From contig NEEC01000345.1 in NCBI GenBank assembly GCA_002189035.1, positions 1 through 48,112 of the forward strand: a stretch of DNA of 48,112 nucleotides, in the 5' to 3' direction. The notes under the pieces are model-generated. The model saw only the letters and a list, made by a program, of their open reading frames with translations, did not search any database and was not told where the DNA came from. This document shows, one piece after another, positions 1-48,112 of this stretch. The stretch's first letter is position 1; every line of letters begins with the position of its first letter. This DNA is from Utricularia gibba (Eukaryota; Streptophyta; Magnoliopsida; Lamiales; Lentibulariaceae). The translations under genes and the position numbers were made by a program.

Positions 1-120
1 TTTCGTGTTGAGAACTTGTTCGTCCGAGGAGCACAAATGCTCGAAAGATTGCCTTATATTAGCCTTCAGATGTGCAACGAAGTGGCCACCACGTTCGCGA
101 AAATGTGACTCGGGACACCT
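1..120. repeat. Partial satellite monomer at left edge
   Basis: This is the 3' third of a unit as phased here, running from TTTCGTGTTGAG to the base before the first GACTCGATG anchor. It carries the shortened GAGGAGCAC state in place of GAGGAGGCAC. The array therefore continues to the left of the window. Confidence 0.97.
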
Positions 121-460
121 GACTCGATGCGAATGTGATTTTTGACATGCAAACATATGTATTTCATGGACGATGTGAAATTTCGGATTTCGAGATGATC
201 ATTTAAGATGCCATGGGTGTGTCCCTAGCCACAACCTCATGGTGGCCTCGTGCACTCTTCGGTATCGAGTGGATATCTTGCAACGGTGATGAGTCATGTT
301 GCACATATACCGTTTCGAAGCTCGTTCCGAGCCGGTCTTCTTTCGTGTTGAGAACTTGTTCGTCCGAGGAGGCACAAATGCTCGAAAGATTGCCTTATAT
401 TAGCCTTCAGATGTGCAACGAAGTGGCCACCACGTTCGCGAAAATGTGACTCGGACACCT

Positions 461-778
461 GACTCGATGCGAATGTGATTTTTGACATGCAAAACATATG
501 TATTCATGACGATGTGAAATTTCGAGATGATCATTTAGATGCCATCGGTGTGTCTAGCCACAACCTCATGGTGGCCTCGTGCACTCTTCGGTATCGAGTG
601 GATATCTTGCAAATCATGTTGCACATACCGTTTCGAAGCTCGTTCCGAGCCGGTCTTTTTTCGTGTTGAGAACTTGTTCGTCCGAGGAGGCACAAATGCT
701 CGAAAGATTGCCTTATATTAGCCTTCAGATGTGCAACGAAGTGGCCACACGTTCGCGAAAATGTGACTCGGGACACCT
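461..778. repeat. 318-bp variant monomer lacking the bZIP-like site
   Basis: The unit has lost about ten bases in the TGCAAATGGTGATGAGTCATG region, which now reads TGCAAATCATG, so ATGAGTCAT is absent. The GAAATTTCGGATTTCGAG segment is shortened to GAAATTTCGAG, and CATGGACG is reduced to CATGACG. It is one of the shortest units in the array. Confidence 0.9.
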
Positions 779-1791
779 GACTCGATGCGAATGTGATTTT
801 TGACATGCAAGACATATGTATTTCATGGACGATGTGAAATTTGATTTCGAGATGATCATTTAAGATGCCATTGTGTCCCTAGCCACAACTCATGGTGGCC
901 TCGTGCACTCTTCGGTATCGAGTGGATATCTTGCAAACGGTGATGAGTCATGTTGCACATATCATACCGTTTCGAAGCTCGTTCCGAGCCAGTCTTCTTT
1001 CGTGTTGAGAACTTGTTCGTCCGAGGCTGCACAAATGCTCGAAAGATTGCCTTATATTAGCCTTCAGATGTGCAACGAAGTGGCCATTCGCGAAAATGTG
1101 ACTCGGGACACCTGACTCGATGCGAATGTGATTTTTGACATGCAAGACATATGTATTTCATGGACGATGTGAAATTTTGGATTTCGAGATGATCATTTAA
1201 GATGGGTGTGTCCCTAGCCACAACCTCATGGTGGCCTCGTGCACTCTTCGGTATCGAGTGGATATCTTGCAAATGGTGATGAGTCATGTTGCACATAGCA
1301 TACCGTTTCGAAGCTCGTTCCGAGCCGGTCTTTTTTCGTGTTGAGAACTTGTTCGTCCGAGGAGGCACAAATGCTCGAAAGATTGCCTTATATTAGCCTT
1401 CAGATGTGCAACGAAGTGGCCACCACGTTCGCGAAAATGTGACTCGGACACCTGACTCGATGCGAATGTGATTTTTGACATGCAAGACGTATGTATTTCA
1501 TGGACGATGTGAAATTTTGGATTTCGAGATGATCATTTAAGATGGGTGTGTTAGCCACAACCTCATGGTGGCCTCGTGCACTCTTCGGTATCGAGTGGAT
1601 ATCTTGCAAACGGTGATGAGTCATGTTGCACATATCATACCGTTTCGAAGCTCGTTCCGAGCCGGTCTTCTTTCGTGTTGAGAACTTGTTCGTCCGAGGA
1701 GGCACAAATGCTCGAAAGATTGCCTTATATTAGCCTTCAGATGTGCAACGAAGTGGCCACCACGTTCGCGAAAATGTGACTCGGGACACCT
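779..1791. repeat. Three-monomer block, first copy of a local duplication
   Basis: This block pairs with 2122-3135, four units downstream. Two rare changes define the pair. GAGGCTGCAC replaces GAGGAGGCAC near 1024 and 2364. GCAAGACGTATG replaces GCAAGACATATG near 1484 and 2831. I saw neither change elsewhere in the window. Both pairs are offset by about 1,340-1,346 bp, as expected if a four-unit segment was copied by unequal exchange and then altered by small deletions. Confidence 0.65.
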
Positions 1792-2121
1792 GACTCGATG
1801 CGAATGTGATTTTTGACATGCAAATATGTATTTCATGGGACGATGTGAAATTTCGATTTCGAGATGATCATTTAAGATGGGGTGTGTCCCTAGCCACAAC
1901 CATGGTGGCCTCGTGCACTCTCGGTATCGAGTGGATATCTTGCAAACGGTGATGAGTCATGTTGCACATATCATACCGTTTCGAAGCTCGTTCCGAGCCG
2001 TCTTCTTTCGTTGAGAACTTGTTCGTCCGAGGGCACAAATGCTCGAAAGATTGCCTTATATTAGCCTTCAGATGTGCAACGAAGTGGCCACCACGTTCGC
2101 GAAAATGTGACTCGGACACCT
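1792..2121. repeat. Recurrent variant monomer, copy 1 of 3
   Basis: The unit combines CATGGGACG (near 1835), a CCC-type linker, ACAACCATGG with the usual CT missing (near 1897), AAACGG, ATATCATACC and GAGGGCAC (near 2029). The same combination recurs at 5462-5799 and 10833-11173, so these three units share a more recent ancestor than their neighbours do. Confidence 0.75.
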
Positions 2122-3135
2122 GACTCGATGCGAATGTGATTTCATGCAAGACATATGTATTTCATGGACGATGTGAAATTTGGATTTCGAGATGATCATT
2201 TAAGATGCCATGGTGTGTCCCTAGCCACAACCTCATGGTGGCCTCGTGCACTCTTCGGTATCGAGTGGATATCTTGCAAACGGTGATGAGTCATGTTGCA
2301 CATATCATACCGTTTCGAAGCTCGTTCCGAGCCTCTTCTTTCGTGTTGAGAACTTGTTCGTCCGAGGCTGCACAAATGCTCGAAAGATTGCCTTATATTA
2401 GCCTTCAGATGTGCAACGAAGTGGCCACCACGTTCGCGAAAATGTGACTCGGGACACCTGACTCGATGCGAATGTGATTTTTGACATGCAAACATATGTA
2501 TTTCATGGACGATGTGAAATTTTGGATTTCGAGATGATCATTTAAGATGCCATGGTGTGTCCCTAGCCACAACCTCATGGTGGCCTCGTGCACTCTTCGG
2601 TATCGAGTGGATATCTTGCAAACGGTGATGAGTCATGTTGCACATATCATACCGTTTTCGAAGCTCGTTCCGAGCCGGTCTTCGTGTTGAGAACTTGTTC
2701 GTCCGAGGAGGCACAAATGCTCGAAAGATTGCCTTATATTAGCCTTCAGATGTGCAACGAAGTGGCCACCACGTTCGCGAAAATGTGACTCGGGACACCT
2801 GACTCGATGCGAATGTGATTTTTGACATGCAAGACGTATGTATTTCATGGACGATGTGAAATTTGGATTTCGAGAATCATTTAAGATGCCATGTGTGTAG
2901 CCACAACCTCATGGTGGCCTCGTGCACTCTTCGGTATCGAGTGGATATCTTGCAAACGGTGATGAGTCATGTTGCACATATCATACCGTTTCGAAGCTCG
3001 TTCCGAGCCGTCTTCTTTCGTGTTGAGACTTGTTCGTCCGAGGAGGCACAAATGCTCGAAAGATTGCCTTATATTAGCCTTCAGATGTGCAACGAAGTGG
3101 CCACCACGTTCGCGAAAATGTGACTCGGGACACCT
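2122..3135. repeat. Three-monomer block, second copy of a local duplication
   Basis: This is the partner of 779-1791. It carries the same two private changes, GAGGCTGCAC near 2364 and GACGTATG near 2833, in the same order and two units apart. The copies differ by small deletions, for example in the GAGCC-TCTT segment at 2331-2340. Confidence 0.65.
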
Positions 3136-4818
3136 GACTCGATGCGAATGTGATTTTTGACATGCAAGACATATGTATTTCATGGACGATGTGAAATTTC
3201 GGATTTCGAGATGATCATTTAAGATGCCATGGTGTGTCTAGCCACAACCTCATGGTGGCCTCGTGCACTCTTCGGTATCGAGTGGATATCTTGCAAATGG
3301 TGATGAGTCATGTTGCACATCATACCGTTTCGAAGCTCGTTCCGAGCCGGTCTTTTTTTCGTGTTGAGAACTTGTTCGTCCGAGGAGGCACAAATGCTCG
3401 AAAGATTGCCTTATATTAGCCTTCAGATGTGCAACGAAGTGGCCACCACGTTCGCGAAATGTGACTCGGGACACCTGACTCGATGCGAATGTGATTTTTC
3501 ATGCAAGACATATGTATTTCATGGACGATGTGAAATTTGGATTTCGAGATGATCATTTAGATGGTGTTAGCCACAACCTCATGGTGGCCTCGTGCACTCT
3601 TCGGTATCGAGTGGATATCTTGCAAACGGTGATGAGTCATGTTGCACATATCATACCGTTTTCGAAGCTCGTTCCGAGCCGGTCTTCTTTCGTGTTGAGA
3701 ACTTGTTCGTCCGAGGAGGCACAAATGCTCGAAAGATTGCCTTATATTAGCCTTCAGATGTGCAACGAAGTGGCCACCACGTTCGCGAAAATGTGACTCG
3801 GACACCTGACTCGATGCGAATGTGATTTTTGACATGCAAAACATATGTATTTCATGGACGATGTGAAATTTCGGATTTCGAGATGATCATTTAAGATGGT
3901 GTGTCCCTAGCCACAACCTCATGGTGGCCTCGTGCACTCTTCGGTATCGAGTGGATATCTTGAAACGGTGATGAGTCATGTTGCACATATCATACCGTTT
4001 CGAAGCTCGTTCCGAGCCGTCTTCTTTCGTGTTGAGAACTTGTTCGTCCGAGGAGCACAAATGCTCGAAAGATTGCCTTATATTAGCCTTCAGATGTGCA
4101 ACGAAGTGGCCACCACGTTCGCGAAAATGTGACTCGGACACCTGACTCGATGCGAATGTGATTTTTGACATGCAAGACATATGTATTTCATGGACGATGT
4201 GAAATTTCGGATTTCGAGATGATCATTTAAGATGCCATGGTGTGTTAGCCACAACCTCATGGTGGCCTCGTGCACTCTTCGGTATCGAGTGGATATCTTG
4301 CAAATGGTGATGAGTCATGTTGCACACATACCGTTTCGAAGCTCGTTCCGAGCCGGTCTTCTTTCGTGTTGAGAACTTGTTCGTCCGAGGAGGCACAAAT
4401 GCTCGAAAGATTGCCTTATATTAGCCTTCAGATGTGCAACGAAGTGGCCACCACGTTCGCGAAAATGTGACTCGGACACCTGACTCGATGCGAATGTGAT
4501 TTTTGACATGCAAAACATATGTATTTCATGGACGATGTGAAATTTGGATTTCGAGATGATCATTTAGATGCCATGTGTGTAGCCACAACCTCATGGTGGC
4601 CTCGTGCACTCTTCGGTATCGAGTGGATATCTTGCAAACGGTGATGAGTCATGTTGCACATATCATACCGTTTCGAAGCTCGTTCCGAGCCGGTCTTCTT
4701 TCGTGTTGAGAACTTGTTCGTCCGAGGAGGCACAAATGCTCGAAAGATTGCCTTATATTAGCCTTCAGATGTGCAACGAAGTGGCCACCACGTTCGCGAA
4801 AATGTGACTCGGACACCT

Positions 4819-5130
4819 GACTCGATGCGAATGTGATTTTTGACATGCAAAACATATGTATTTCATGGACGATGTGAAATTTTGGATTTCGAGATGATCA
4901 TTTAAGATGCCAAGCCACAACCTCATGGTGGCCTCGTGCACTCTTCGGTATCGTGGATATCTTGCAAACGGTGATGAGTCATGTTGCGAAGCTCGTTCCG
5001 AGCCGGTCTTTTTTCGTGTTGAGAACTTGTTCGTCCGAGGAGCACAAATGCTCGAAAGATTGCCTTATATTAGCCTTCAGATGTGCAACGAAGTGGCCAC
5101 CACGTTCGCGAAATGTGACTCGGGACACCT
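4819..5130. repeat. 312-bp monomer with two internal deletions
   Basis: This is the shortest unit apart from the one at 20007. The linker after TTTAAGATG is reduced to CCA before AGCC. A 17-base stretch between GTTGC and GAAGC is missing, which normally holds the CATATCATACCG segment; it is absent at about 4987. TATCGAGTGG is also shortened to TATCGTGG. ATGAGTCAT is retained. Confidence 0.9.
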
Positions 5131-5461
5131 GACTCGATGCGAATGTGATTTTTGACATGCAAGACATATGTATTTCATGGACGATGTGAAATTTGGATTT
5201 CGAGATGATCATTTAAGATGCGGTGTCTAGCCACAACCTCATGGTGGCCTCGTGCACTCTTCGGTATCGAGTGGATATCTTGCAACGGTGATGAGTCATG
5301 TTGCACATATCATACCGTTCGAAGCTCGTTCCGAGCCGGTCTTTTTCGTGTTGAGAACTTGTTCGTCCGAGGGCACAAATGCTCGAAAGATTGCCTTATA
5401 TTAGCTTCAGATGTGCAACGAAGTGGCCACCACGTTCGCGAAAATGTGACTCGGGACACCT

Positions 5462-5799
5462 GACTCGATGCGAATGTGATTTTTGACATGCAAGACATAT
5501 GTATTTCATGGGACGATGTGAAATTTGGATTTCGAGATGATCATTTAAGATGCCATGGGTGTGTCCCTAGCCACAACCATGGTGGCCTCGTGCACTCTTC
5601 GGTATCGAGTGGATATCTTGCAAACGGTGATGAGTCATGTTGCACATATCATACCGTTTCGAAGCTCGTTCCGAGCCGTCTTCTTTCGTGTTGAGAACTT
5701 GTTCGTCCGAGGGCACAAATGCTCGAAAGATTGCCTTATATTAGCCTTCAGATGTGCAACGAAGTGGCCACCACGTTCGCGAAAATGTGACTCGGACCT
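5462..5799. repeat. Recurrent variant monomer, copy 2 of 3
   Basis: The unit shares CATGGGACG, CCATGGGTGTGTCCCTAG, ACAACCATGG, AAACGG, ATATCATACC and GAGGGCAC with 1792-2121 and 10833-11173. It also has CTCGGACCTG in place of CTCGGGACACCTG just before the next unit. Confidence 0.75.
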
Positions 5800-8700
5800 G
5801 ACTCGATGCGAATGTGATTTTTGACATGCAAAACATATGTATTTCATGGACGATGTGAAATTTGGATTTCGAGATGATCATTTAAGATGCCATGTGTCCC
5901 TAGCCACAACCTCATGGTGGCCTCGTGCACTCTTCGGTGAGTGGATATCTTGCAAACGGTGATGAGTCATGTTGCACATATCATACGTTTCGAAGCTCGT
6001 TCCGAGCCGTCTTTTTCGTGTTGAGAACTTGTTCGTCCGAGGGCACAAATGCTCGAAAGATTGCCTTATATTAGCCTTCATGTGCAACGAAGTGGCCACC
6101 ACGTTCGCGAAAATGTGACTCGGGACACCTGACTCGATGCGAATGTGATTTTGACATGCAAAACATATGTATTTCATGGACGATGTGAAATTTGGATTTC
6201 GAGATGATCATTTAAGATGCCATGGTGTGTCCTAGCCACAACCTCATGGTGGCCTCGTGCACTCTTCGGTATCGAGTGGATATCTTGCAAATGGTGATGA
6301 GTCATGTTGCACATATCATACCGTTTCGAAGCTCGTTCCGAGCCGGTCTTTTTTCGTGTGAGAACTTGTTCGTCCGAGGAGGCACAAATGCTCGAAAGAT
6401 TGCCTTATATTAGCCTTCAGATGTGCAACGAAGTGGCCACCACGTTCGAAAATGTGACTCGGGACACCTGACTCGATGCGAATGTGATTTTTGACATGCA
6501 AAACATATGTATTTCATGGACGATGTGAAATTTCGGATTTCGAGATGATCATTTAAGATGCCATGGTGTTAGCCACAACCTCATGGTGGCCTCGTGCACT
6601 CTTCGGTATCGAGTGGATATCTTGCAAATGGTGATGAGTCATGTTGCACATATACCGTTTCGAAGCTCGTTCCGAGCCGGTCCGTGTTGAGAACTTGTTC
6701 GTCCGAGGAGGCACAAATGCTCGAAAGATTGCCTTATATTAGCCTTCAGATGTGCAACGAAGTGGCCACCACGTTCGCGAAAATGTGACTCGGACACCTG
6801 ACTCGATGCGAATGTGATTTTTGACATGCATATGTATTTCATGGACGATGTGAATTTTGGATTTCGAGATGATCATTTAAGATGGGTGTCTAGCCACAAC
6901 CTCATGGTGGCCTCGTGCACTCTTCGTATCGAGTGGATATCTTGAAATGGTGATGAGTCATGTTGCACACATACCGTTTCGAAGCTCGTTCCGAGCCGGT
7001 CTTTTTCGTGTTGAGAACTTGTTCGTCCGAGGAGCACAAATGCTCGAAAGATTGCCTTATATTAGCCTTCAGATGTGCAACGAAGTGGCCACCACGTTCG
7101 CGAAAATGTGACTCGGGACACCTGACTCGATGCGAATGTGATTTTTGACATGCATATGTATTTCATGGACGATGTGAAATTTCGGATTTCGAGATGATCA
7201 TTTAAGATGCAAGCCACAACCTCATGGTGGCCTCGTGCACTCTTCGGTATCGAGTGGATATCTTGCAAATGGTGATGAGTCATGTTGCACATATCATACC
7301 GTTTCGAAGCTCGTTCCGAGCCGGTCTTCTTTCGTGTGAGAACTTGTTCGTCCGAGGAGGCACAAATGCTCGAAAGATTGCCTTATATTAGCCTTCAGAT
7401 GTGCAACGAAGTGGCCACCACGCGAAATGTGACTCGGACACCTGACTCGATGCGAATGTGATTTTTGACATGCAAGACATATGTATTTCATGGACGATGT
7501 GAAATTTGGATTTCGAGATGATCATTTAAGATGCCATGGTGTGTCCCTAGCCACAACCTCATGGTGGCCTCGTGCACTCTTCGGTATCGAGTGGATATCT
7601 TGCAACGGTGATGAGTCATGTTGCACATATCATACGTTTCGAAGCTCGTTCCGAGCCGGTCTTCTTTCGTGTTGAGAACTTGTTCGTCCGAGGAGGCACA
7701 AATGCTCGAAAGATTGCCTTATATTAGCCTTCAGATGTGCAACGAAGTGGCCACTTCGCGAAAATGTGACTCGGACACCTGACTCGATGCGAATGTGATT
7801 TTTGACATGCAAAACATATGTATTTCATGGGACGATGTGAAATTTGGATTTCGAGATGATCATTTAAGATGCCATGGTGTGTCTAGCCACAACCTCATGG
7901 TGGCCTCGTGCACTCTTCGGTATCGAGTGGATATCTTGAAACGGTGATGAGTCATGTTGCACATATCATACCGTTTCGAAGCTCGTTCCGAGCCGTCTTC
8001 TTTCGTGTTGAGAACTTGTTCGTCCGAGGGCACAAATGCTCGAAAGATTGCCTTATATTAGCCTTCAGATGTGCAACGAAGTGGCCACCACGTTCGCGAA
8101 AATGTGACTCGGACACCTGACTCGATGCGAATGTGATTTTTGACATGCAAAACATATGTATTTCATGGACGATGTGAAATTTCGGATTTCGAGATGATCA
8201 TTTAAGATGCCATGGTGTGTAGCCACAACCTCATGGTGGCCTCGTGCACTCTTCGGTATCGAGTGGATATCTGGTGATGAGTCATGTTGCACATAGCATA
8301 CCGTTTCGAAGCTCGTTCCGAGCCGGTCTTTTTTCGTGTTGAGAACTTGTTCGTCCGAGGAGGCACAAATGCTCGAAAGATTGCCTTATATTAGCCTTCA
8401 GATGTGCAACGAAGTGGCCACCACGTTCGCGAAAATGTGACTCGGGACACCTGACTCGATGCGAATGTGATTTTTGACATGCAACATATGTATTTCATGG
8501 ACGATGTGAAATTTCGGATTTCGAGATGATCATTTAAGATGCCATGGTGTGTTAGCCACAACCTCATGGTGGCCTCGTGCACTCTTCGGTATCGAGTGGA
8601 TATCTTGAAATGGTGATGAGTCATGTTGCACATCCGTTTCGAAGCTCGTTCCGAGCCGTCTTCTTTCGTGTTGAGAACTTGTTCGTCCGAGAGGCACAAA

Positions 8701-9125
8701 TGCTCGAAAGATTGCCTTATATAGCCTTCAGATGTGCAACGAAGTGGCCACCACGTTCGCGAAAATGTGACTCGGACACCTGACTCGATGCGAATGTGAT
8801 TTTTGACATGCAAAACATATGTATTTCATGGACGATGTGAAATTTTGGATTTCGAGATGATCATTTAAGATGCCATGGTGTGTCTAGCCACAACCTCATG
8901 GTGGCCTCGTGCACTCTTCGGTATCGAGTGGATATCTTGCAAACGGTGATGAGTCATGTTGCACATATCATACCGTTTCGAAGCTCGTTCCGAGCCGGTC
9001 TTTTTTTCGTGTTGAGAACTTGTTCGTCCGAGGAGGCACAAATGCTCGAAAGATTGCCTTATATTAGCCTTCAGATGTGCAACGAAGTGGCCACCACGTT
9101 CGCGAAAATGTGACTCGGGACACCT

Positions 9126-33200: not shown

Positions 33201-36034
33201 CGAAAGATTGCCTTATATTAGCCTTCAGATGTGCAACGAAGTGGCCACCACGTTCGCGAAAATGTGACTCGGGACACCTGACTCGATGCGAATGTGATTT
33301 TTGACATGCAAAAATATGTATTTCATGGACGATGTGAAATTTCGGATTTCGAGATGATCATTTAAGATGCCATCGGTGTGTCCCTAGCCACAACCTCATG
33401 GTGGCCTCGTGCACTCTTCGGTATCGAGTGGATATCTTACAAACGGTGATGAGTCATGTTGCACAAAGCATACCATTTCGAAGCTCGTTCCGAGCCGGTC
33501 TTTTTTCGTGTGGAGAACTTGTTCGTCCGAGGAGGCACAAATGCTCGAAAGATTGCCTTATATTAGCCTTCAGATGTGCAACGAAGTGGCCACCACGTTC
33601 GCGAAAATGTGACTCGGACACCTGACTCGATGCGAATGTGATTTTTGACATGCAAAACATATGTATTTCATGGACGATGTGAAATTTCGGATTTCGAGAT
33701 GATCATTTAAGATGCCATCGTGTGTGGCTAGCCACAACCTCATGGTGGCCTCGTGCACTCTTCGGTATCGAGTGGATATCTTACAAATGGTGATGAGTCA
33801 TGTTGCACAAAGCATACCATTTCGAAGCTCGTTCCGAGCCGTCTTTTTTCGTGTGAGAACTTGTTCGTCCGAGGAGGCACAAATGCTCGAAAGATTGCCT
33901 TATATTAGCCTTCAGATGTGCAACGAAGTGGCCACCACGTTCGCGAAAATGTGACTCGGGACACCTGACTCGATGCGAATGTGATTTTTGACATGCAAAA
34001 CATATGTATTTCATGGACGATGTGAAATTTCGGATTTCGAGATGATCATTTAAGATGCCATGGGTGTGTCCCTAGCCACAACCTCATGGTGGCCTCGTGC
34101 ACTCTTCGGTATCGAGTGGATATCTTGCAAACGGTGATGAGTCATGTTGCACATAGCATACCGTTTCGAAGCTCGTTCCGAGCCGGTCTTCTTTCGTGTT
34201 GAGAACTTGTTCGTCCGAGGAGGCACAAATGCTCGAAAGATTGCCTTATATTAGCCTTCAGATGTGCAACGAAGTGGCCACCACGTTCGCGAAAATGTGA
34301 CTCGGGACACCTGACTCGATGCGAATGTGATTTTTGACATGCAAAACATATGTATTTCATGGACGATGTGAAATTTCGGATTTCGAGATGATCATTTAAG
34401 ATGCCATCGGTGTGTGGCTAGCCACAACCTCATGGTGGCCTCGTGCACTCTTCGTATCGAGTGGATATCTTGCAAACGGTGATGAGTCATGTTGCACATA
34501 GCATACCGTTTCGAAGCTCGTTCCGAGCCGGTCTTTTTTCGTGTGAGAACTTGTTCGTCCGAGGAGGCACAAATGCTCGAAAGATTGCCTTATATTAGCC
34601 TTCAGATGTGCAACGAAGTGGCCACCACGTTCGCGAAAATGTGACTCGGGACACCTGACTCGATGCGAATGTGATTTTTGACATGCAAAACATATGTATT
34701 TCATGGACGATGTGAAATTTCGGATTTCGAGATGATCATTTAAGATGCCATCGGTGTGTCCCTAGCCACAACCTCATGGTGGCCTCGTGCACTCTTCGGT
34801 ATCGAGTGGATATCTTACAAATGGTGATGAGTCATGTTGCACATAGCATACCGTTTCGAAGCTCGTTCCGAGCCGGTCTTTTTTCGTGTGAGAACTTGTT
34901 CGTCCGAGGAGGCACAAATGCTCGAAAGATTGCCTTATATTAGCCTTCAGATGTGCAACGAAGTGGCCACCACGTTCGCGAAAATGTGACTCGGACACCT
35001 GACTCGATGCGAATGTGATTTTTGACATGCAAACATATGTATTTCATGGACGATGTGAAATTTCGGATTTCGAGATGATCATTTAAGATGCATCGGTGTG
35101 TGGCTAGCCACAACCTCATGGTGGCCTCGTGCACTCTTCGGTATCGAGTGGATATCTTACAATGGTGATGAGTCATGTTGCACATATCATACCGTTTCGA
35201 AGCTCGTTCCGAGCCGGTCTTCTTTCGTGTTGAGAACTTGTTCGTCCGAGGAGGCACAAATGCTCGAAAGATTGCCTTATATTAGCCTTCAGATGTGCAA
35301 CGAAGTGGCCACCACGTTCGCGAAAATGTGACTCGGACACCTGACTCGATGCGAATGTGATTTTTGACATGCAAAAACATATGTATTTCATGGACGATGT
35401 GAAATTTCGGATTTCGAGATGATCATTTAAGATGCCATCGGTGTGTGGCTAGCCACAACCTCATGGTGGCCTCGTGCACTCTTCGGTATCGAGTGGATAT
35501 CTTACAAATGGTGATGAGTCATGTTGCACAAAGCATACCGTTTCGAAGCTCGTTCCGAGCCGGTCTTTTTTCGTGTTGAGAACTTGTTCGTCCGAGGAGG
35601 CACAAATGCTCGAAAGATTGCCTTATATTAGCCTTCAGATGTGCAACGAAGTGGCCACCACGTTCGCGAAAATGTGACTCGGGACACCTGACTCGATGCG
35701 AATGTGATTTTTGACATGCAAAAACATATGTATTTCATGTGACGATGTGAAATTTCGGATTTCGAGATGATCATTTAAGATGCCATGGGGTGTGGCTAGC
35801 CACAACCTCATGTGGCCTCGTGCACTCTTCGGTATCGAGTGGATATCTTGCAAACGGTGATGAGTCATGTTGCACATATCATACCGTTTCGAAGCTCGTT
35901 CCGAGCCAGTCTTCTTTCGTGTGAGAACTTGTTCGTCCGAGGAGGCACAAATGCTCGAAAGATTGCCTTATATTAGCCTTCAGATGTGCAACGAAGTGGC
36001 CACCACGTTCGCGAAAATGTGACTCGGGACACCT

Positions 36035-36381
36035 GACTCGATGCGAATGTGATTTTTGACATGCAAAACATATGTATTTCATGGACGATGTGAAATTTCG
36101 GATTTCGAGATGATCATCGAGATGATCATTTAGATGCCGGTGTGTGGCTAGCCACAACCTCATGGTGGCCTCGTGCACTCTTCGGTATCGAGTGGATATC
36201 TTGCAAATGATGAGTCATGTTGCACATATCATACCGTTTCGAAGCTCGTCCGAGCCGTCTTTTTCGTGTTGAGAACTTGTTCGTCCGAGGAGGCACAAAT
36301 GCTCGAAAGATTGCCTTATATTAGCCTTCAGATGTGCAACGAAGTGGCCACCACGTTCGCGAAAATGTGACTCGGACACCT
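36035..36381. repeat. Border monomer with 12-bp tandem duplication
   Basis: CGAGATGATCAT occurs twice in a row, at 36106-36117 and 36118-36129; every other unit has one copy. The linker is shortened to GATGCCGG, TGCAAATGATG has lost two bases, and CGTCCGAGCC replaces CGTTCCGAGCC. Net length is 347 bp. To the left the domain B markers TTACAA and CACAAAGC are common. To the right they almost vanish. The unit is thus a second one-off rearrangement lying on a subfamily border. Confidence 0.93.
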
Positions 36382-39300
36382 GACTCGATGCGAATGTGAT
36401 TTTTGACATGCAAAACATATGTATTTCATGGACGATGTGAAATTTCGGATTTCGAGATGATCATTTAAGATGCCATGGTGTGTCTAGCCACAACCTCATG
36501 GTGGCCTCGTGCACTCTTCGGTATCGAGTGGATATCTTGCAAACGGTGATGAGTCATGTTGCACATATCATACCGTTTCGAAGCTCGTTCCGAGCCGTCT
36601 TCTTTCGTGTTGAGAACTTGTTCGTCCGAGGAGGCACAAATGCTCGAAAGATTGCCTTATATTAGCCTTCAGATGTGCAACGAAGTGGCCACCACGTTCG
36701 CGAAAATGTGACTCGGGACACCTGACTCGATGCGAATGTGATTTTTGACATGCAAAACATATGTATTTCATGGACGATGTGAAATTTGGATTTCGAGATG
36801 ATCATTTAAGATGCCATCGGTGTGTCTAGCCACAACCTCATGGTGGCCTCGTGCACTCTTCGGTATCGAGTGGATATCTTGCAAACGGTGATGAGTCATG
36901 TTGCACATAATTTCGAAGCTCGTTCCGAGCCGTCTTCTTTCGTGTTGAGAACTTGTTCGTCCGAGGAGGCACAAATGCTCGAAAGATTGCCTTATATTAG
37001 CCTTCAGATGTGCAACGAAGTGGCCACCACGTTCGCGAAAATGTGACTCGGGACACCTGACTCGATGCGAATGTGATTTTTGACATGCAAACATATGTAT
37101 TTCATGGACGATGTGAATTTCGGATTTCGAGATGATTTTAAGATGCTGGTGTGTGGCTAGCCACAACCTCATGGTGGCCTCGTGCACTCTTCGGTATCGA
37201 GTGGATATCTTGCACGGTGATGAGTCATGTTGCACATATCATACCGTTTCGAAGCTCGTTCCGAGCCGTCTTTTTTCGTGTTGAGAACTTGTTCGTCCGA
37301 GGAGGCACAAATGCTCGAAAGATTGCCTTATATTAGCCTTCAGATGTGCAACGAAGTGGCCACCACGTTCGCGAAAATGTGACTCGGGACACCTGACTCG
37401 ATGCGAATGTGATTTTTGACATGCAAAACATATGTATTTCATGGACGATGTGAAATTTCGGATTTCGAGATGATCATTTAAGATGCCATCGGGTGTGTCC
37501 TAGCCACAACCTCATGGTGGCTCGTGCACTCTTCGGTATCGAGTGGATATCTTGCAAACGGTGATGAGTCATGTTGCACATACCGTTTCGAAGCTCGTTC
37601 CGAGCCGTCTTCTTTCGTGTTGAGAACTTGTTCGTCCGAGGAGGCACAAATGCTCGAAAGATTGCCTTATATTAGCCTTCAGATGTGCAACGAAGTGGCC
37701 ACCACGTTCGCGAAAATGTGACTCGGGACACCTGACTCGATGCGAATGTGATTTTTGACATGCAAACATATGTATTTCATGGACGATGTGAAATTTCGGA
37801 TTTCGAGATGATCATTTAAGATGCCATCGGTGTGTGGCTAGCCACAACCTCATGGTGGCCTCGTGCACTCTTCGGTATCGAGTGGATATCTTGCAAATGG
37901 TGATGAGTCATGTTGCACATATCATACCGTTTCGAAGCTCGTTCCGAGCCGGTCTTTTTCGTGTTGAGAACTTGTTCGTCCGAGGAGGCACAAATGCTCG
38001 AAAGATTGCCTTATATTAGCCTTCAGATGTGCAACGAAGTGGCCACCACGTTCGCGAAAATGTGACTCGGACACCTGACTCGATGCGAATGTGATTTTTG
38101 ACATGCAAAACATATGTATTTCATGGACGATGTGAAATTTCGGATTTCGAGATGATCATTTAAGATGCCATCGGTGTGTGGCTAGCCACAACCTCATGGT
38201 GGCCTCGTGCACTCTTCGGTATCGAGTGGATATCTTACAAATGGTGATGAGTCATGTTGCACATATCATACCGTTTCGAAGCTCGTTCCGAGCCGGTCTT
38301 TTTCGTGTTGAGAACTTGTTCGTCCGAGGAGGCACAAATGCTCGAAAGATTGCCTTATATTAGCCTTCAGATGTGCAACGAAGTGGCCACCACGTTCGCG
38401 AAAATGTGACTCGGGACACCTGACTCGATGCGAATGTGATTTTTGACATGCAAAACATATGTATTTCATGGACGATGTGAATTTCGGATTTCGAGATGAT
38501 CATTTAAGATGCCATCGGTGTGTGGCTAGCCACAACCATGGTGGCCTCGTGCACTCTTCGGTATCGAGTGGATATCTTGCAAACGGTGATGAGTCATGTT
38601 GCACATATCATACCGTTTCGAAGCTCGTTCCGAGCCGTCTTCTTTCGTGTTGAGAACTTGTTCGTCCGAGGAGGCACAAATGCTCGAAAGATTGCCTTAT
38701 ATTAGCCTTCAGATGTGCAACGAAGTGGCCACCACGTTCGCGAAAATGTGACTCGGACACCTGACTCGATGCGAATGTGATTTTTGACATGCAAAACATA
38801 TGTATTTCATGGACGATGTGAAATTTCGGATTTCGAGATGATCATTTAAGATGCCATCGGTGTGTGGCTAGCCACAACCTCATGGTGGCCTCGTGCACTC
38901 TTCGGTATCGAGTGGATATCTTGCAAACGGTGATGAGTCATGTTGCACATATCATACCGTTTCGAAGCTCGTTCCGAGCCGGTCTTTTTTCGTGTTGAGA
39001 ACTTGTTCGTCCGAGGAGGCACAAATGCTCGAAAGATTGCCTTATATTAGCCTTCAGATGTGCAACGAAGTGGCCACCACGTTCGCGAAAATGTGACTCG
39101 GGACACCTGACTCGATGCGAATGTGATTTTTGACATGCAAAACATATGTATTTCATGGACGATGTGAAATTTCGGATTTCGAGATGATCATTTAAGATGC
39201 CATGGTGTGTCCTAGCCACAACCTCATGGTGGCCTCGTGCACTCTTCGGTATCGAGTGGATATCTTGCAAACGGTGATGAGTCATGTTGCACATATCATA

Positions 39301-42243
39301 CCGTTTCGAAGCTCGTTCCGAGCCGGTCTTTTTTCGTGTTGAGAACTTGTTCGTCCGAGGAGGCACAAATGCTCGAAAGATTGCCTTATATTAGCCTTCA
39401 GATGTGCAACGAAGTGGCCACCACGTTCGCGAAAATGTGACTCGGGACACCTGACTCGATGCGAATGTGATTTTTGACATGCAAAACAATGTATTTCATG
39501 GACGATGTGAAATTTCGGATTTCGAGATGATCATTTAAGATGCCATGGTGTGTGGCTAGCCACAACCTCATGGTGGCTCGTGCACTCTTCGGTATCGAGT
39601 GGATATCTTGCAAACGGTGATGAGTCATGTTGCACATATCATACCGTTTCGAAGCTCGTTCCGAGCCGGTCTTTTTTCGTGTTGAGAACTTGTTCGTCCG
39701 AGGAGGCACAAATGCTCGAAAGATTGCCTTATATTAGCCTTCAGATGTGCAACGAAGTGGCCACCACGTTCGCGAAAATGTGACTCGGACACCTGACTCG
39801 ATGCGAATGTGATTTTTGACATGCAAAACATATGTATTTCATGGACGATGTGAAATTTCGGATTTCGAGATGATCATTTAAGATGCCATCGGTGTGTCCC
39901 TAGCCACAACCTCATGGTGGCCTCGTGCACTCTTCGGTATCGAGTGGATATCTTGCAAATGGTGATGAGTCATGTTGCACATATCATACCGTTTCGAAGC
40001 TCGTTCCGAGCCGGTCTTTTTTCGTGTGGAGAACTTGTTCGTCCGAGGAGGCACAAATGCTCGAAAGATTGCCTTATATTAGCCTTCAGATGTGCAACGA
40101 AGTGGCCACCACGTTCGCGAAAATGTGACTCGGGACACCTGACTCGATGCGAATGTGATTTTTGACATGCAAAACATATGTATTTCATGGGACGATGTGA
40201 AATTTCGGATTTCGAGATGATCATTTAAGATGCCATCGGTGTGTCCCTAGCCACAACCTCATGGTGGCCTCGTGCACTCTTCGGTATCGAGTGGATATCT
40301 TGCAAACGGTGATGAGTCATGTTGCACATATCATACCGTTTCGAAGCTCGTTCCGAGCCGGTCTTCTTTCGTGTTGAGAACTTGTTCGTCCGAGGAGGCA
40401 CAAATGCTCGAAAGATTGCCTTATATTAGCCTTCAGATGTGCAACGAAGTGGCCACCACGTTCGCGAAAATGTGACTCGGACACTGACTCGATGCGAATG
40501 TGATTTTTGACATGCAAAACATATGTATTTCATGGACGATGTGAAATTTCGGATTTCGAGATGATCATTTAAGATGCCATCGGTGTGTGGCTAGCCACAA
40601 CCTCATGGTGGCCTCGTGCACTCTTCGGTATCGAGTGGATATCTTGCAAACGGTGATGAGTCATGTTGCACATATCATACCGTTTCGAAGCTCGTTCCGA
40701 GCCGTCTTCTTTCGTGTTGAGAACTTGTTCGTCCGAGGAGGCACAAATGCTCGAAAGATTGCCTTATATAGCCTTCAGATGTGCAACGAAGTGGCCACCA
40801 CGTTCGCGAAAATGTGACTCGGACACCTGACTCGATGCGAATGTGATTTTTGACATGCAAAACATATGTATTTCATGGACGATGTGAAAATTTCGGATTT
40901 CGAGATGATCATTTAAGATGCCATCGGTGTGTGGCTAGCCACAACCTCATGGTGGCCTCGTGCACTCTTCGGTATCGAGTGGATATCTTGCAAACGGTGA
41001 TGAGTCATGTTGCACATATCATACCGTTTCGAAGCTCGTTCCGAGCCGTCTTTTTCGTGTTGAGAACTTGTTCGTCCGAGGAGGCACAAATGCTCGAAAG
41101 ATTGCCTTATATTAGCCTTCAGATGTGCAACGAAGTGGCCACCACGTTCGCGAAAATGTGACTCGGGACACCTGACTCGATGCGAATGTGATTTTTGACA
41201 TGCAAAACATATGTATTTCATGGACGATGTGAAATTTCGGATTTCGAGATGATCATTTAAGATGCCATCGGTGTGTGGCTAGCCACAACCTCATGGTGGC
41301 CTCGTGCACTCTTCGGTATCGAGTGGATATCTTGCAAACGGTGATGAGTCATGTTGCACATATCATACCGTTTCGAAGCTCGTTCCGAGCCGTCTTCTTT
41401 CGTGTTGAGAACTTGTTCGTCCGAGGAGGCACAAATGCTCGAAAGATTGCCTTATATTAGCCTTCAGATGTGCAACGAAGTGGCCACCACGTTCGCGAAA
41501 ATGTGACTCGGGACACCTGACTCGATGCGAATGTGATTTTTGACATGCAAAACATATGTATTTCATGTGACGATGTGAAATTTCGGATTTCGAGATGATC
41601 ATTTAAGATGCCATCGGTGTGTGGCTAGCCACAACCTCATGGTGGCCTCGTGCACTCTTTCGGTATCGAGTGGATATCTTGCAAACGGTGATGAGTCATG
41701 TTGCACATATCATACCGTTTCGAAGCTCGTTCCGAGCCGTCTTCTTTCGTGTTGAGAACTTGTTCGTCCGAGGAGGCACAAATGCTCGAAAGATTGCCTT
41801 ATATTAGCCTTCAGATGTGCAACGAAGTGGCCACCACGTTCGCGAAAATGTGACTCGGGACACCTGACTCGATGCGAATGTGATTTTTGACATGCAAAAC
41901 ATATGTATTTCATGGACGATGTGAAATTTCGGATTTCGAGATGATCATTTAAGATGCCATCGGTGTGTGGCTAGCCACAACCTCATGGTGGCCTCGTGCA
42001 CTCTTCGGTATCGAGTGGATATCTTGCAAACGGTGATGAGTCATGTTGCACATATCATACCGTTTCGAAGCTCGTTCCGAGCCGGTCTTCTTTCGTGTTG
42101 AGAACTTGTTCGTCCGAGGAGGCACAAATGCTCGAAAGATTGCCTTATATTAGCCTTCAGATGTGCAACGAAGTGGCCACCACGTTCGCGAAAATGTGAC
42201 TCGGGACACTGACTCGATGCGAATGTGATTTTTGACATGCAAA

Positions 42244-42293
42244 ACATATGTATTTCATGGACGATGTGAAATTTCGGATTTCGAGATGATCAT
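42244..42293. other. Cluster of three 8-bp palindromes in the monomer
   Basis: Within 50 bases lie ACATATGT (42244-42251), GAAATTTC (42268-42275) and ATGATCAT (42286-42293), each a perfect 8-bp dyad. GAAATTTC is lost where the next base column reads T or a gap. A fourth, TTCGCGAA, lies at 42529-42536. The clustering is notable for a 345-bp unit, but short palindromes are individually weak evidence of function. Confidence 0.6.
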
Positions 42294-42300
42294 TTAAGAT

Positions 42301-42315
42301 GCCATGGTGTGTCCC
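42301..42315. other. Hypervariable linker of the monomer
   Basis: This is the stretch between TTTAAGATG and TAGCCACAACC. In full form it reads GCCATCGGTGTGTGGC or GCCATGGGTGTGTCCC. In domain A it shrinks repeatedly, for example to GCCA at 4911-4914 and to GCA or GCCA near 7209 and 13996. It is the most length-variable part of the unit and also holds the GG/CC switch that makes or breaks the palindrome. Confidence 0.8.
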
Positions 42316-42379
42316 TAGCCACAACCTCATGGTGGCCTCGTGCACTCTTCGGTATCGAGTGGATATCTTGCAAACGGTG

Positions 42380-42388
42380 ATGAGTCAT
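42380..42388. promoter_or_regulatory. ATGAGTCAT, Gcn4/AP-1-type bZIP site, one per monomer
   Basis: ATGAGTCAT is the ideal pseudo-palindromic site for Gcn4/AP-1-type bZIP dimers; in plants the TGAGTCA core is the GCN4-like motif bound by Opaque2-type bZIPs. This is the copy in the reference unit. It lies in the well-conserved GGTGATGAGTCATGTTGCAC context and is present in essentially all units. I noted losses only in the units starting 461 and 20971. The match is seen directly; occupancy is speculative, since nine bases can be conserved simply by array homogenisation. Confidence 0.55.
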
Positions 42389-42513
42389 GTTGCACATATC
42401 ATACCGTTTCGAAGCTCGTTCCGAGCCGGTCTTCTTTCGTGTTGAGAACTTGTTCGTCCGAGGAGGCACAAATGCTCGAAAGATTGCCTTATATTAGCCT
42501 TCAGATGTGCAAC
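42389..42513. other. 9-bp inverted repeat arms, 107-base loop
   Basis: GTTGCACAT (42389-42397) and ATGTGCAAC (42505-42513) are exact reverse complements. In domain B units with GTTGCACAAAGC the pairing drops to eight bases. The pair could fold in a transcript or in single-stranded DNA, but a 107-base loop makes spontaneous extrusion in duplex DNA unlikely. Confidence 0.55.
42414..42426. other. Short hairpin GCTCG-TTC-CGAGC
   Basis: Five-base arms flank a three-base loop. The arms stay complementary in units that read GCTCGTTCGAGC, where the loop shrinks to two bases. There is no T-run arranged as in a bacterial terminator, and the eukaryotic satellite context argues against that role. Confidence 0.5.
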
Positions 42514-45500
42514 GAAGTGGCCACCACGTTCGCGAAAATGTGACTCGGGACACCTGACTCGATGCGAATGTGATTTTTGACATGCAAAACATATGTATTT
42601 CATGGACGATGTGAAATTTCGGATTTCGAGATGATCATTTAAGATGCCATCGGTGTGTGGCTAGCCACAACCTCATGGTGGCCTCGTGCACTCTTCGGTA
42701 TCGAGTGGATATCTTGCAAACGGTGATGAGTCATGTTGCACATATCATACCGTTTCGAAGCTCGTTCCGAGCCGTCTTCTTTCGTGTTGAGAACTTGTTC
42801 GTCCGAGGAGGCACAAATGCTCGAAAGATTGCCTTATATTAGCCTTCAGATGTGCAACGAAGTGGCCACCACGTTCGCGAAAATGTGACTCGGACACCTG
42901 ACTCGATGCGAATGTGATTTTTGACATGCAAAACATATGTATTTCATGGACGATGTGAAATTTGGATTTCGAGATGATCATTTAAGATGCCATGGTGTGT
43001 GGCTAGCCACAACCTCATGGTGGCCTCGTGCACTCTTCGGTATCGAGTGGATATCTTGCAAACGGTGATGAGTCATGTTGCACATATCATACCGTTTCGA
43101 AGCTCGTTCCGAGCCGGTCTTTTTCGTGTTGAGAACTTGTTCGTCCGAGGAGGCACAAATGCTCGAAAGATTGCCTTATATTAGCCTTCAGATGTGCAAC
43201 GAAGTGGCCACCACGTTCGCGAAAATGTGACTCGGACACCTGACTCGATGCGAATGTGATTTTTGACATGCAAAACATATGTATTTCATGGACGATGTGA
43301 AATTTCGGATTTCGAGATGATCATTTAAGATGCCATGGTGTGTGGCTAGCCACAACCTCATGGTGGCCTCGTGCACTCTTCGGTATCGAGTGGATATCTT
43401 GCAAACGGTGATGAGTCATGTTGCACATATCATACCGTTTCGAAGCTCGTTCCGAGCCGTCTTCTTTCGTGTTGAGAACTTGTTCGTCCGAGGAGGCACA
43501 AATGCTCGAAAGATTGCCTTATATTAGCCTTCAGATGTGCAACGAAGTGGCCACCACGTTCGCGAAAATGTGACTCGGGACACCTGACTCGATGCGAATG
43601 TGATTTTTGACATGCAAAACATATGTATTTCATGGACGATGTGAAATTTCGGATTTCGAGATGATCATTTAAGATGCCATCGGTGTGTGGCTAGCCACAA
43701 CCTCATGGTGGCCTCGTGCACTCTTCGGTATCGAGTGGATATCTTGCAAATGGTGATGAGTCATGTTGCACATATCATACCGTTTCGAAGCTCGTTCCGA
43801 GCCGGTCTTTTTTCGTGTTGAGAACTTGTTCGTCCGAGGAGGCACAAATGCTCGAAAGATTGCCTTATATTAGCCTTCAGATGTGCAACGAAGTGGCCAC
43901 CACGTTCGCGAAAATGTGACTCGGGACACCTGACTCGATGCGAATGTGATTTTTGACATGCAAAACATATGTATTTCATGGACGATGTGAAATTTCGGAT
44001 TTCGAGATGATCATTTAAGATGCCATGGTGTGTGCTAGCCACAACCTCATGGTGGCCTCGTGCACTCTTCGGTATCGAGTGGATATCTTGCAAATGGTGA
44101 TGAGTCATGTTGCACATAGCATACCGTTTTCGAAGCTCGTTCCGAGCCGGTCTTCTTTCGTGTGAGAACTTGTTCGTCCGAGGAGGCACAAATGCTCGAA
44201 AGATTGCCTTATATTAGCCTTCAGATGTGCAACGAAGTGGCCACCACGTTCGCGAAAATGTGACTCGGGACACCTGACTCGATGCGAATGTGATTTTTGA
44301 CATGCAAAACATATGTATTTCATGGACGATGTGAAATTTCGGATTTCGAGATGATCATTTAAGATGCCATGGTGTGTGGCTAGCCACAACCTCATGGTGG
44401 CCTCGTGCACTCTTCGGTATCGAGTGGATATCTTGCAAACGGTGATGAGTCATGTTGCACATATCATACCGTTTCGAAGCTCGTTCCGAGCCGGTCTTCT
44501 TTCGTGTTGAGAACTTGTTCGTCCGAGGAGGCACAAATGCTCGAAAGATTGCCTTATATTAGCCTTCAGATGTGCAACGAAGTGGCCACCACGTTCGCGA
44601 AAATGTGACTCGGACACCTGACTCGATGCGAATGTGATTTTTGACATGCAAAACATATGTATTTCATGGACGATGTGAAATTTCGGATTTCGAGATGATC
44701 ATTTAAGATGCCATGGTGTGTGGCTAGCCACAACCTCATGGTGGCCTCGTGCACTCTTCGGTATCGAGTGGATATCTTGCAAATGGTGATGAGTCATGTT
44801 GCACATATCATACCGTTTCGAAGCTCGTTCCGAGCCGGTCTTTTTCGTGTGGAGAACTTGTTCGTCCGAGGAGGCACAAATGCTCGAAAGATTGCCTTAT
44901 ATTAGCCTTCAGATGTGCAACGAAGTGGCCACCACGTTCGCGAAAATGTGACTCGGGACACTGACTCGATGCGAATGTGATTTTTGACATGCAAAACATA
45001 TGTATTTCATGGACGATGTGAAATTTCGGATTTCGAGATGATCATTTAAGATGCCATGGTGTGTAGCCACAACCTCATGGTGGCCTCGTGCACTCTTCGG
45101 TATCGAGTGGATATCTTGCAAATGGTGATGAGTCATGTTGCACATATCATACCGTTTCGAAGCTCGTTCCGAGCCGGTCTTCTTTCGTGTTGAGAACTTG
45201 TTCGTCCGAGGAGCACAAATGCTCGAAAGATTGCCTTATATTAGCCTTCAGATGTGCAACGAAGTGGCCACCACGTTCGCGAAAATGTGACTCGGACACC
45301 TGACTCGATGCGAATGTGATTTTTGACATGCAAAACATATGTATTTCATGGACGATGTGAAATTTCGGATTTCGAGATGATCATTTAAGATGCCATGGTG
45401 TGTCTAGCCACAACCTCATGGTGGCCTCGTGCACTCTTCGGTATCGAGTGGATATCTTGCAAATGGTGATGAGTCATGTTGCACATATCATACCGTTTCG

Positions 45501-47022
45501 AAGCTCGTTCCGAGCCGGTCTTCTTTCGTGTTGAGAACTTGTTCGTCCGAGGAGGCACAAATGCTCGAAAGATTGCCTTATATTAGCCTTCAGATGTGCA
45601 ACGAAGTGGCCACCACGTTCGCGAAAATGTGACTCGGGACACCTGACTCGATGCGAATGTGATTTTTGACATGCAAACATATGTATTTCATGGACGATGT
45701 GAAATTTCGGATTTCGAGATGATCATTTAAGATGCCATCGGTGTGTCCTAGCCACAACCTCATGGTGGCCTCGTGCACTCTTCGGTATCGAGTGGATATC
45801 TTACAAATGGTGATGAGTCATGTTGCACATAGCATACCGTTTCGAAGCTCGTTCCGAGCCGGTCTTTTTCGTGTTGAGAACTTGTTCGTCCGAGGAGGCA
45901 CAAATGCTCGAAAGATTGCCTATATTAGCCTTCAGATGTGCAACGAAGTGGCCACCACGTTCGCGAAAATGTGACTCGGGACACCTGACTCGATGCGAAT
46001 GTGATTTTTGACATGCAAAACATATGTATTTCATGGACGATGTGAAATTTCGGATTTCGAGATGATCATTTAAGATGCCATCGGTGTGTGGCTAGCCACA
46101 ACCTCATGGTGCCTCGTGCACTCTTCGGTATCGAGTGGATATCTTGCAAATGGTGATGAGTCATGTTGCACATATCATACCGTTTCGAAGCTCGTTCCGA
46201 GCCGGTCTTTTTTCGTGTTGAGAACTTGTTCGTCCGAGGAGGCACAAATGCTCGAAAGATTGCCTTATATTAGCCTTCAGATGTGCAACGAAGTGGCCAC
46301 CACGTTCGCGAAAATGTGACTCGGGACACCTGACTCGATGCGAATGTGATTTTTGACATGCAAAACATATGTATTTCATGTGACGATGTGAAATTTCGGA
46401 TTTCGAGATGATCATTTAAGATGCCATGGGTGTGTGGCTAGCCACAACCTCATGGTGGCCTCGTGCACTCTTCGGTATCGAGTGGATATCTTGCAAATGG
46501 TGATGAGTCATGTTGCACATATCATACCGTTTCGAAGCTCGTTCCGAGCCGTCTTCTTTCGTGTTGAGAACTTGTTCGTCCGAGGAGGCACAAATGCTCG
46601 AAAGATTGCCTTATATTAGCCTTCAGATGTGCAACGAAGTGGCCACCACGTTCGCGAAAATGTGACTCGGACACCTGACTCGATGCGAATGTGATTTTTG
46701 ACATGCAAAACATATGTATTTCATGGACGATGTGAAATTTCGGATTTCGAGATGATCATTTAAGATGCCATCGGTGTGTCCCTAGCCACAACCTCATGGT
46801 GGCCTCGTGCACTCTTCGGTATCGAGTGGATATCTTGCAAATGGTGATGAGTCATGTTGCACATAGCATACCGTTTCGAAGCTCGTTCCGAGCCGGTCTT
46901 CTTTCGTGTTGAGAACTTGTTCGTCCGAGGAGGCACAAATGCTCGAAAGATTGCCTTATATTAGCCTTCAGATGTGCAACGAAGTGGCCACCACGTTCGC
47001 GAAAATGTGACTCGGGACACCT

Positions 47023-48112
47023 GACTCGATGCGAATGTGATTTTTGACATGCAAACATATGTATTTCATGTGACGATGTGAAATTTTGGATTTCGAGATG
47101 ATCATTTAAGATGCCATGGGTGTGTCTAGCCACAACCTCATGGTGGCCTCGTGCACTCTTCGGTATCGAGTGGATATCTTGCAAACGGTGATGAGTCATG
47201 TTGCACATATCATACCGTTTCGAAGCTCGTTCCGAGCCGGTCTTCTTTCGTGTTGAGAACTTGTTCGTCCGAGGAGGCACAAATGCTCGAAAGATTGCCT
47301 TATATTAGCCTTCAGATGTGCAACGAAGTGGCCACCACGTTCGCGAAAATGTGACTCGGGACACCTGACTCGATGCGAATGTGATTTTTGACATGCAAAC
47401 ATATGTATTTCATGGACGATGTGAAATTTTGGATTTCGAGATGATCATTTAAGATGCCATGGTGTGTCCTAGCCACAACCTCATGGTGGCCTCGTGCACT
47501 CTTCGGTATCGAGTGGATATCTTGCAAAGGTGATGAGTCATGTTGCACATATCATACCGTTTCGAAGCTCGTTCCGAGCCGGTCTTCTTTCGTGTTGAGA
47601 ACGTTCGTCCGAGGAGGCACAAATGCTCGAAAGATTGCCTTATATTAGCCTTCAGATGTGCAACGAAGTGGCCACCACGTTCGCGAAAATGTGACTCGGG
47701 ACACCTGACTCGATGCGAATGTGATTTTTGACATGCAAAATATGTATTTCATGGGACGATGTGAAATTTCGGATTTCGAGATGATCATTTAAGATGCCAT
47801 GGGTGTGTGGCTAGCCACAACCTCATGGTGGCCTCGTGCACTCTTCGGTATCGAGTGGATATCTTGCAAACGGTGATGAGTCATGTTGCACATATTACCG
47901 TTTCGAAGCTCGTTCCGAGCCGGTCTTTTTCGTGTTGAGAACTTGTTCGTCCGAGGAGGCACAAATGCTCGAAAGATTGCCTTATATTAGCCTTCAGATG
48001 TGCAACGAAGTGGCCACCACGTTCGCGAAATGTGACTCGGGACACCTGACTCGATGCGAATGTGATTTTTGACATGCAAGACATATGTATTTCATGTGAC
48101 GATGTGAAATTT
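47023..48112. repeat. Right end: monomers with returning domain A markers
   Basis: Units start at 47023, 47367 and 47707, with a partial unit from 48048. GAAATTTTGG reappears at 47082 and 47425 after being absent since domain A. Short TCTAGCC and CCTAGCC linkers follow. CATGGGACG is present near 47750, and GCAAGACATATG at 48077 is the first GCAAGACA since about 19025. The unit at 47367 also lacks four bases in GAGAACTTGTTCG (near 47602). The array continues beyond the right edge. Confidence 0.75.

Follow-up and report, generated by a model that had tools for sequence, protein, structure and literature searches.

Single-base gaps at run-extending substitutions in a Utricularia gibba satellite array: a probable graph-consensus artefact

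Units of the satellite studied here carry one of two bases, or no base, at a set of variable columns. We consider it probable, at roughly 0.8, that the satellite and its substitutions are real and that most of the gap states are a graph-consensus artefact arising at run-extending substitutions. A gap needs a segregating column of which one allele equals the neighbouring base, so that a run is lengthened; segregation alone is insufficient. The original prediction, a consensus that drops a base where reads disagree, was right about the kind of artefact, which is supported by the segregation of the same columns across arrays, weak haplotype linkage, an excess of deletions, simulation, and a test specified beforehand, but disagreement alone is not enough, and run extension is also required. 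On balance, we do not take the three-state columns to be a genuine feature of the genome, and their interest is mainly technical.

The array and its three-state columns

Contig C184 (48,112 bases, forward strand) makes up the entire window and is satellite throughout. It holds 142 unit anchors, 136 of them exact, and 141 whole units on a single strand. The unit is about 345 bp, with 342 to 344 bp being the commonest lengths, and each unit was aligned to a reference of 347 columns. The 22-base unit anchor has at least 1,676 exact copies genome-wide (850 + 826) in an assembly of 100,091,633 bases and 516 contigs, and the satellite-bearing contigs include C107, C128, C145, C155, C180, C184, C198, C231, C290, C330, C331, and C334, among others. 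The same assembly has 140 NAC-domain matches, and TTTAGGG telomere arrays begin contigs C1 to C3 among the matches listed, as fits a small land plant. A search for 5.8S rRNA gave no match, a result of little weight with the method used.

The window divides into three sub-arrays (Table 1), of which the left is the gap-richest, with 4.53 deletion events per unit, followed by the middle with 2.68 and the right with 2.47. The 276-bp unit coincides exactly with a switch in the set of segregating substitutions, and it marks either a true boundary between arrays or a join made during assembly. A unit of about 345 bp and local sub-families arranged block-wise along the array are, as is generally known, shared with ordinary plant satellites, whereas ordinary satellite turnover would not predict gap states at substitution columns. 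The unit at 35957-36304 has an 11-bp insertion that duplicates TCGAGATGATCA, with the repeat located at 36105-36129. Positions 1-40000 of C107 hold a sub-family with linked substitutions at columns 59, 60, 64, 78, 101, and 103, as well as many irregular units of 142 to 623 bp interspersed with regular 345-bp stretches.

Table 1. Features of the window and forms of three example sites
Feature	Start	End	Strand	Basis or example
Satellite array, 141 whole units	1	48112	+	Anchor count and unit alignment
Left sub-array; columns 111, 144, 183-184, 245, 269, 304 segregate	1	20034	+	Column profile
276-bp unit, 69-bp deletion (columns 107-175)	19930	20205	+	Unit alignment
Middle sub-array; columns 240, 267, 276 segregate, 111 fixed A	about 20035	about 36200	+	Column profile
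Right sub-array; columns 240, 267, 269 nearly fixed	about 36200	48112	+	Column profile
Column 70, CTC[G/A/-]GGAC	10137	10137	+	Example in unit starting 10068
Column 111, GCAA[A/G/-]ACA	10178	10178	+	Unit starting 10068
Column 144, TTT[C/T/-]GGA	10210	10210	+	Unit starting 10068
Columns 175 and 183-184, CAT[C/G/-]GGTGTGT[GG/CC/fewer]CTAG	10241	10250	+	Unit starting 10068
Contrast sites 240 TT[G/A]CA and 245 AAA[T/C]GG: segregating, nearly gap-free	10306	10311	+	4/201 and 14/391 gaps
Column 267, CA[T/A/-]A (A lengthens run)	10333	10333	+	Unit starting 10068
Contrast site 276 ACC[G/A]TTT: segregating, 0/281 gaps	10342	10342	+	Gap counts over three arrays
Columns 298, 304, 313: CC[G/A/-]G, TCTT[C/T/-]TTT, GTGT[T/G/-]GAG	10364	10380	+	Unit starting 10068
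First example site: X CATGGGTGTGT, Y CATCGGTGTGT, shortened CATGGTGTGT				
Second example site: X GCAAAACATA, Y GCAAGACATA, shortened GCAAACATA				
Third example site: X CTCGGGACA, Y CTCAGGACA, shortened CTCGGACA				

All eight motifs that had been proposed to carry base X, base Y, or a gap are found in three states among the 141 units. At GCAA[A/G/-]ACA, 113 units have A, 23 have G, and about 20 to 24 have one A fewer, while TCTT[C/T/-]TTT has C in 68 units and T in 71, about 20 being one base short. CAT[C/G/-]GGTG is C in 58, G in 32, and without the base in 51, and up to three bases are missing from TGTGT[GG/CC/fewer]CTAG. The remaining counts, in the order of the bracketed states, are 93/12/25 for the main forms of TTT[C/T/-]GGA, 103/5/24 for GTGT[T/G/-]GAG, 109/2/30 for CC[G/A/-]GTCT, and 92/3/42 for CTC[G/A/-]GGAC. 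At the last two motifs (columns 298 and 70) the three states are there, but the partner base is almost missing in the window (2 and 3 units), and the coupling at these columns is therefore visible only in other arrays. The weak coupling of columns 70, 298, and 313 in the window contrasts with C231, where all three segregate (G 42/A 15, G 50/A 10, and T 62/G 17, respectively). At column 171 (ATG[C]CAT), ATGCATCGG replaces ATGCCATCGG in 19/80 units of C231 and 12/60 units of C180; a clear partner base is lacking in the two arrays, and this form could be a genuine length allele.

Segregation and run extension as determinants of gaps

Deletions in the window concentrate at substitution columns, as had been proposed. 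With a variable column defined as one where five or more units carry a substitution (13 columns), the slippage interval holds a variable column in 215 of the 482 deletion events, a total that excludes single-column gaps at column 127 (590 with them). Circular shifts of the variable columns gave a mean of 50.5 and reached 215 in 0/346 cases. When two or three flanking columns were allowed, 3/346 shifts reached the observed coupling, and with a non-degenerate plain reference 24.6% of the gap cells lie in 3.5% of the columns, reached by 0/345 shifts. The 482 deletion events compare with 24 insertion events. Constant blocks are indeed poor in indels, with 26/920 gap cells in 86 columns (blocks of at least 20 columns, selected for at most two gaps per column). 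The coupling does not extend to every segregating column: columns 276, 240, and 245, which the original prediction did not list, are nearly gap-free. Gaps co-occur weakly within units (observed variance reached in 95/2000 shuffles), the gap load per unit has a lag-1 autocorrelation of -0.215 (null -0.036, SD 0.084), and the gap rate is hardly raised by disagreement among the eight nearest units (69/318 versus 78/457, P = 0.11).

What distinguishes the gap-rich from the gap-poor segregating columns is run extension. For the five-array tests we compared the window with arrays of the same satellite in C107, C145, C231, and C180, dropping units outside 260-375 bp (kept: C184, 141/141; C107, 104/119; C145, 86/87; C231, 80/80; C180, 60/67), excluding pieces of C330 (22/30 units kept) and C508 (13/19), and leaving deletions longer than 4 bp out of the site counts. 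Gap cells number 772/3275 at 16 run-extending sites versus 60/1638 at the 6 remaining sites (site-level P = 2.7e-5), with site 51 segregating insufficiently in every array for this test. Among the segregating sites without run extension, column 276 has no gaps in three arrays, columns 64 and 114 have 2/104 and 3/190, respectively, and columns 240 and 245 are similarly poor (Table 1); the exception is column 269, where gaps number 35/391. Sites of the same A/G class diverge by context, with 41/227 gaps at AA[A/G]AC (column 111), 0/281 at ACC[G/A]TTT (column 276), and 4/201 at column 240, which speaks against an effect of mismatch type.

Homopolymer slippage alone is likewise a disfavoured explanation, as substitution-free runs in the window are gap-poor (0-3/141 in six runs, 6/141 in AAAA, and 2/141 in TTTTT). 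C145 is an exception: in this array the AAAA and TTTTT runs (columns 58-61 and 97-101) vary rarely and have 17/86 and 11/86 gaps, which points to hidden pooling or else counts against the run rule.

Across the five arrays, a given column in an unchanged context has a higher gap rate where it segregates and a low one where it is fixed. The correlation between heterozygosity and gap rate after removal of site and block effects is 0.359, reached in 0/5000 permutations (20 sites, 23 blocks). Column 25, for example, has 20/104 gaps in C107, where it segregates, versus 0/367 in the arrays where it is fixed. The corresponding segregating and fixed counts are 28/104 and 4/281 for column 78, 41/227 and 2/80 for column 111, 60/287 and 0/80 for column 144, and 45/140 and 5/190 for column 313. 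Exceptions are columns 298, with 38/331 gaps where it is fixed, and 304, with 19/104 in C107, where it is likewise fixed.

The run rule was noticed in these first arrays, and the site tests above are therefore not independent of it. For this reason a prediction was written down before further arrays were fetched. In six further arrays, gaps number 182/862 at 29 run-extending sites versus 24/543 at 15 others (P = 3.6e-4), with the adjacent columns 59/60, 140/141, 183/184, and 334/335 each counted separately. This second test is independent of the data that suggested the rule, except that another piece of C330 had already been inspected; the other five contigs were new to the analysis. Units outside 310-365 bp were dropped (kept: C128, 26/29; C155, 27/29; C290, 52/56; C331, 18/26; C334, 56/56; C330, 28/28), and a second C107 piece (24/27 kept) was, as stated beforehand, outside the primary count. 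Run-extending sites that newly join the list include CCAC[C/A]ACC, with 18/52 gaps in C290, and TTGC[G/A]AAC, with 16/56 in C334 and 1/52 in C290. Zero gaps are found at some run-extending sites, namely column 101 in C128 (0/26) and columns 70, 183, and 184 in C331 (0/18).

A proposed consensus mechanism and its simulation

This pattern would arise if a graph consensus were built on mixed noisy long reads, drawn from units that are not identical or from a pair of near-identical arrays. All reads would be aligned to one backbone, a mismatch being turned into an insertion plus a deletion and gaps being slid along runs. Where allele X equals its neighbour, an X/Y substitution would then be stored as a missing Y plus one X added at the opposite end of the run. 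The two events would be decided separately, and near 50:50 both would lose, leaving no base and a unit one short; rarely, both would win and the unit would be one base long. Without run extension by either allele, X and Y would compete at a single position, where one or the other would nearly always be written.

A review gives the U. gibba assembly as 82 Mb with a contig N50 of 3.4 Mb, made with HGAP (PMC5793159), PBdagcon is described as the major module in HGAP (PMC4906657), and a modified PBdagcon makes the contig consensus in Canu (PMC5411767) and HiCanu (PMC7545148). The present assembly was presumably built by HGAP with PBdagcon from U. gibba PacBio reads, and likelihood polishing (Quiver) probably left the ambiguous repeats unrepaired.

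We wrote our own graph consensus modelled on PBdagcon, in which the best path is scored by subtracting half the coverage from the edge count. Its core was exact in 20/20 trials with pure reads. At mixing proportions of 0.4-0.6, units were shortened at a rate of 0.140 at run-extending sites versus 0.016 elsewhere, and lengthening was at 0.015; the shortening follows from the substitution being stored as two independent events that both lose near equality. The contrast had the same direction in 7/7 parameter sets, the default included. A two-source array simulation with a high mismatch penalty gave 0.161 at run-extending sites (observed 0.216) and 0.016 at others (observed 0.037), with AUC values, as defined below, of 0.80 for bases (observed 0.78) and 0.48 for gaps (observed 0.53). 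The state with both bases kept, which the mechanism predicts, is found as TTCTTTT in four units and CATCGGG in one. The re-implementation thus yields the same third state as the arrays, chiefly at run-extending substitutions, with rates lower than those of C184; the comparison with PBdagcon itself runs through our own version of the algorithm and a presumed assembly pipeline.

The data agree with the mechanism in that gaps follow the segregation of a column, with the exceptions of 298 and 304, that segregating sites without run extension keep their base, with the exception of 269, and that gaps are hardly linked to haplotype apart from a few with an AUC of up to 0.77. Quantitatively, the prediction of rates failed: simulated deletion totals were too low, at 10-62 events for neighbour mixing and 109-313 for pooled sources versus 481 observed, and pooling of nearby units only was rejected for this reason. 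The better settings were chosen post hoc and assume, among other things, that three columns carry hidden minor alleles at 35%. The negative autocorrelation of gap load and the slight effect of disagreement among neighbouring units, both given above, also fit the mechanism poorly. Simulated and observed site rates correlate over all 22 sites (rho = 0.48, P = 0.024) and not within the run-extending class (rho = -0.15); at columns 59-60, for example, 0.20 was predicted and 4/104 gaps were observed.

A maximum-likelihood pair-HMM run on the mixtures dropped the base at 0/20 one-base sites and gave four calls of both bases at three of these sites. It shortened the two-base sites 183-184 in 11/45 and 59-60 in 2/45 cases, and 334-335 in none. 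A likelihood polisher was rejected as the source, since no one-base site was lost, though two-base sites were shortened. Likelihood polishing amply supplied with reads should therefore remove most such gaps, and the polisher presumably could not place reads within the repeat.

Haplotype linkage, rival explanations, and context

The gaps could instead be inherited length alleles, that is, single-base run deletions spread by unequal exchange and conversion, which would be linked to neighbouring base alleles. We predicted the state of each column from the rest of its unit and scored the prediction as AUC. Base alleles reach a median of 0.80 (58 tests) versus 0.57 for gaps (40 tests; P = 5e-8), so that the rest of the unit hardly predicts most gaps. 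A few gaps do show some linkage or regional clustering (AUC 0.7-0.77), such as column 313 in C184 (0.77) and columns 183-184 in C145 (0.75). Genuine length variants also exist in the family: in C334 a common deletion of several bases at columns 171-173 (about 171-174) is linked to unit type, being present in 11/15 units of one type versus 2/15 of another. Real length alleles thus occur and are recognisable, and most three-state gaps behave otherwise. The column-242 gap in the same array spans all four marker types (4/15, 6/15, 1/13, and 5/13). In the window, column 70 has gaps in 26/60 units of the left and 11/34 of the right sub-array, and column 298 in 12/34 of the right, with no A called there, and these, more than any other gaps, may be real. 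Overall, the expected linkage to neighbouring base alleles is seen for the C334 deletion and fails for the gaps at large; together with the gap-poor constant runs of the window and a gap rate that tracks the segregation of the column, this makes inheritance an unlikely general explanation.

In C334 the markers at columns 51 and 114, which do not extend a run, each segregate 28:28 and are unlinked (AG 15, GA 15, AA 13, GG 13). Such scrambling is expected from column-by-column decisions in a 50:50 pool, and recombination would also do. Dimeric alternation in this array was considered and rejected, the 43/55 differing neighbours being no excess over shuffles (mean 41.9). No case of the same locus assembled twice was found, with 82 shared gaps versus 71.1 expected in the best 14 tracts of 12 units, which overlap one another.

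A consensus artefact of another kind, in which a likelihood polisher or column vote drops any disagreed position regardless of context, would account for the deletion bias and for the coupling with segregating columns. It leaves the retained bases at the other segregating sites (60/1638) unaccounted for, and the pair-HMM lost none of the 20 one-base sites while shortening 13/90 cases at columns 59-60 and 183-184; we regard this variant as very unlikely. Lower still is the probability of a real process in the plant that shortens a run by one base where an array contains both units that carry the run-extending base and units that lack it, e.g., through the repair of single-base loops from out-of-register heteroduplex pairing beside the run. 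Gaps arising in this way would be continually remade and hence hardly linked to haplotype, mimicking the graph consensus.

Biological deletion of bases at heteroduplex mismatches between units had been named as the alternative of interest, and it does predict gaps at segregating columns and their scarcity at constant ones. The gap rate is, however, set by run context rather than by the mismatch, as the same A/G class yields 41/227 gaps in one context and 0/281 or 4/201 in others, and non-run-extending sites have 60/1638 gap cells against 772/3275. Moreover, no repair pathway is known to us by which the two partners of a mismatched pair are both lost. This alternative is not supported, and its probability is very low.

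The graph-consensus artefact at run-extending substitutions, which we prefer, shares with the generally known consensus errors of mixed or collapsed copies in long-read repeats the pooling of reads from non-identical copies, and differs in being bound to one context. A literature search, mostly of titles and abstracts, returned no paper on a run-extending gap signature, and we do not claim that it is unpublished. At face value, the arrays would point to a process in which deletion is linked to differences in sequence. As a forensic rule, one-base "indel alleles" at run-extending substitutions flag unresolved pooling of copies in graph-consensus assemblies, and run-extending sites should be masked before such assemblies are used to study indel rate, unit length, or satellite variation.

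One publication describes the putative centromeres of U. gibba as being without satellite repeats (PMC8333044), a statement with which the anchor copy number reported above sits oddly.
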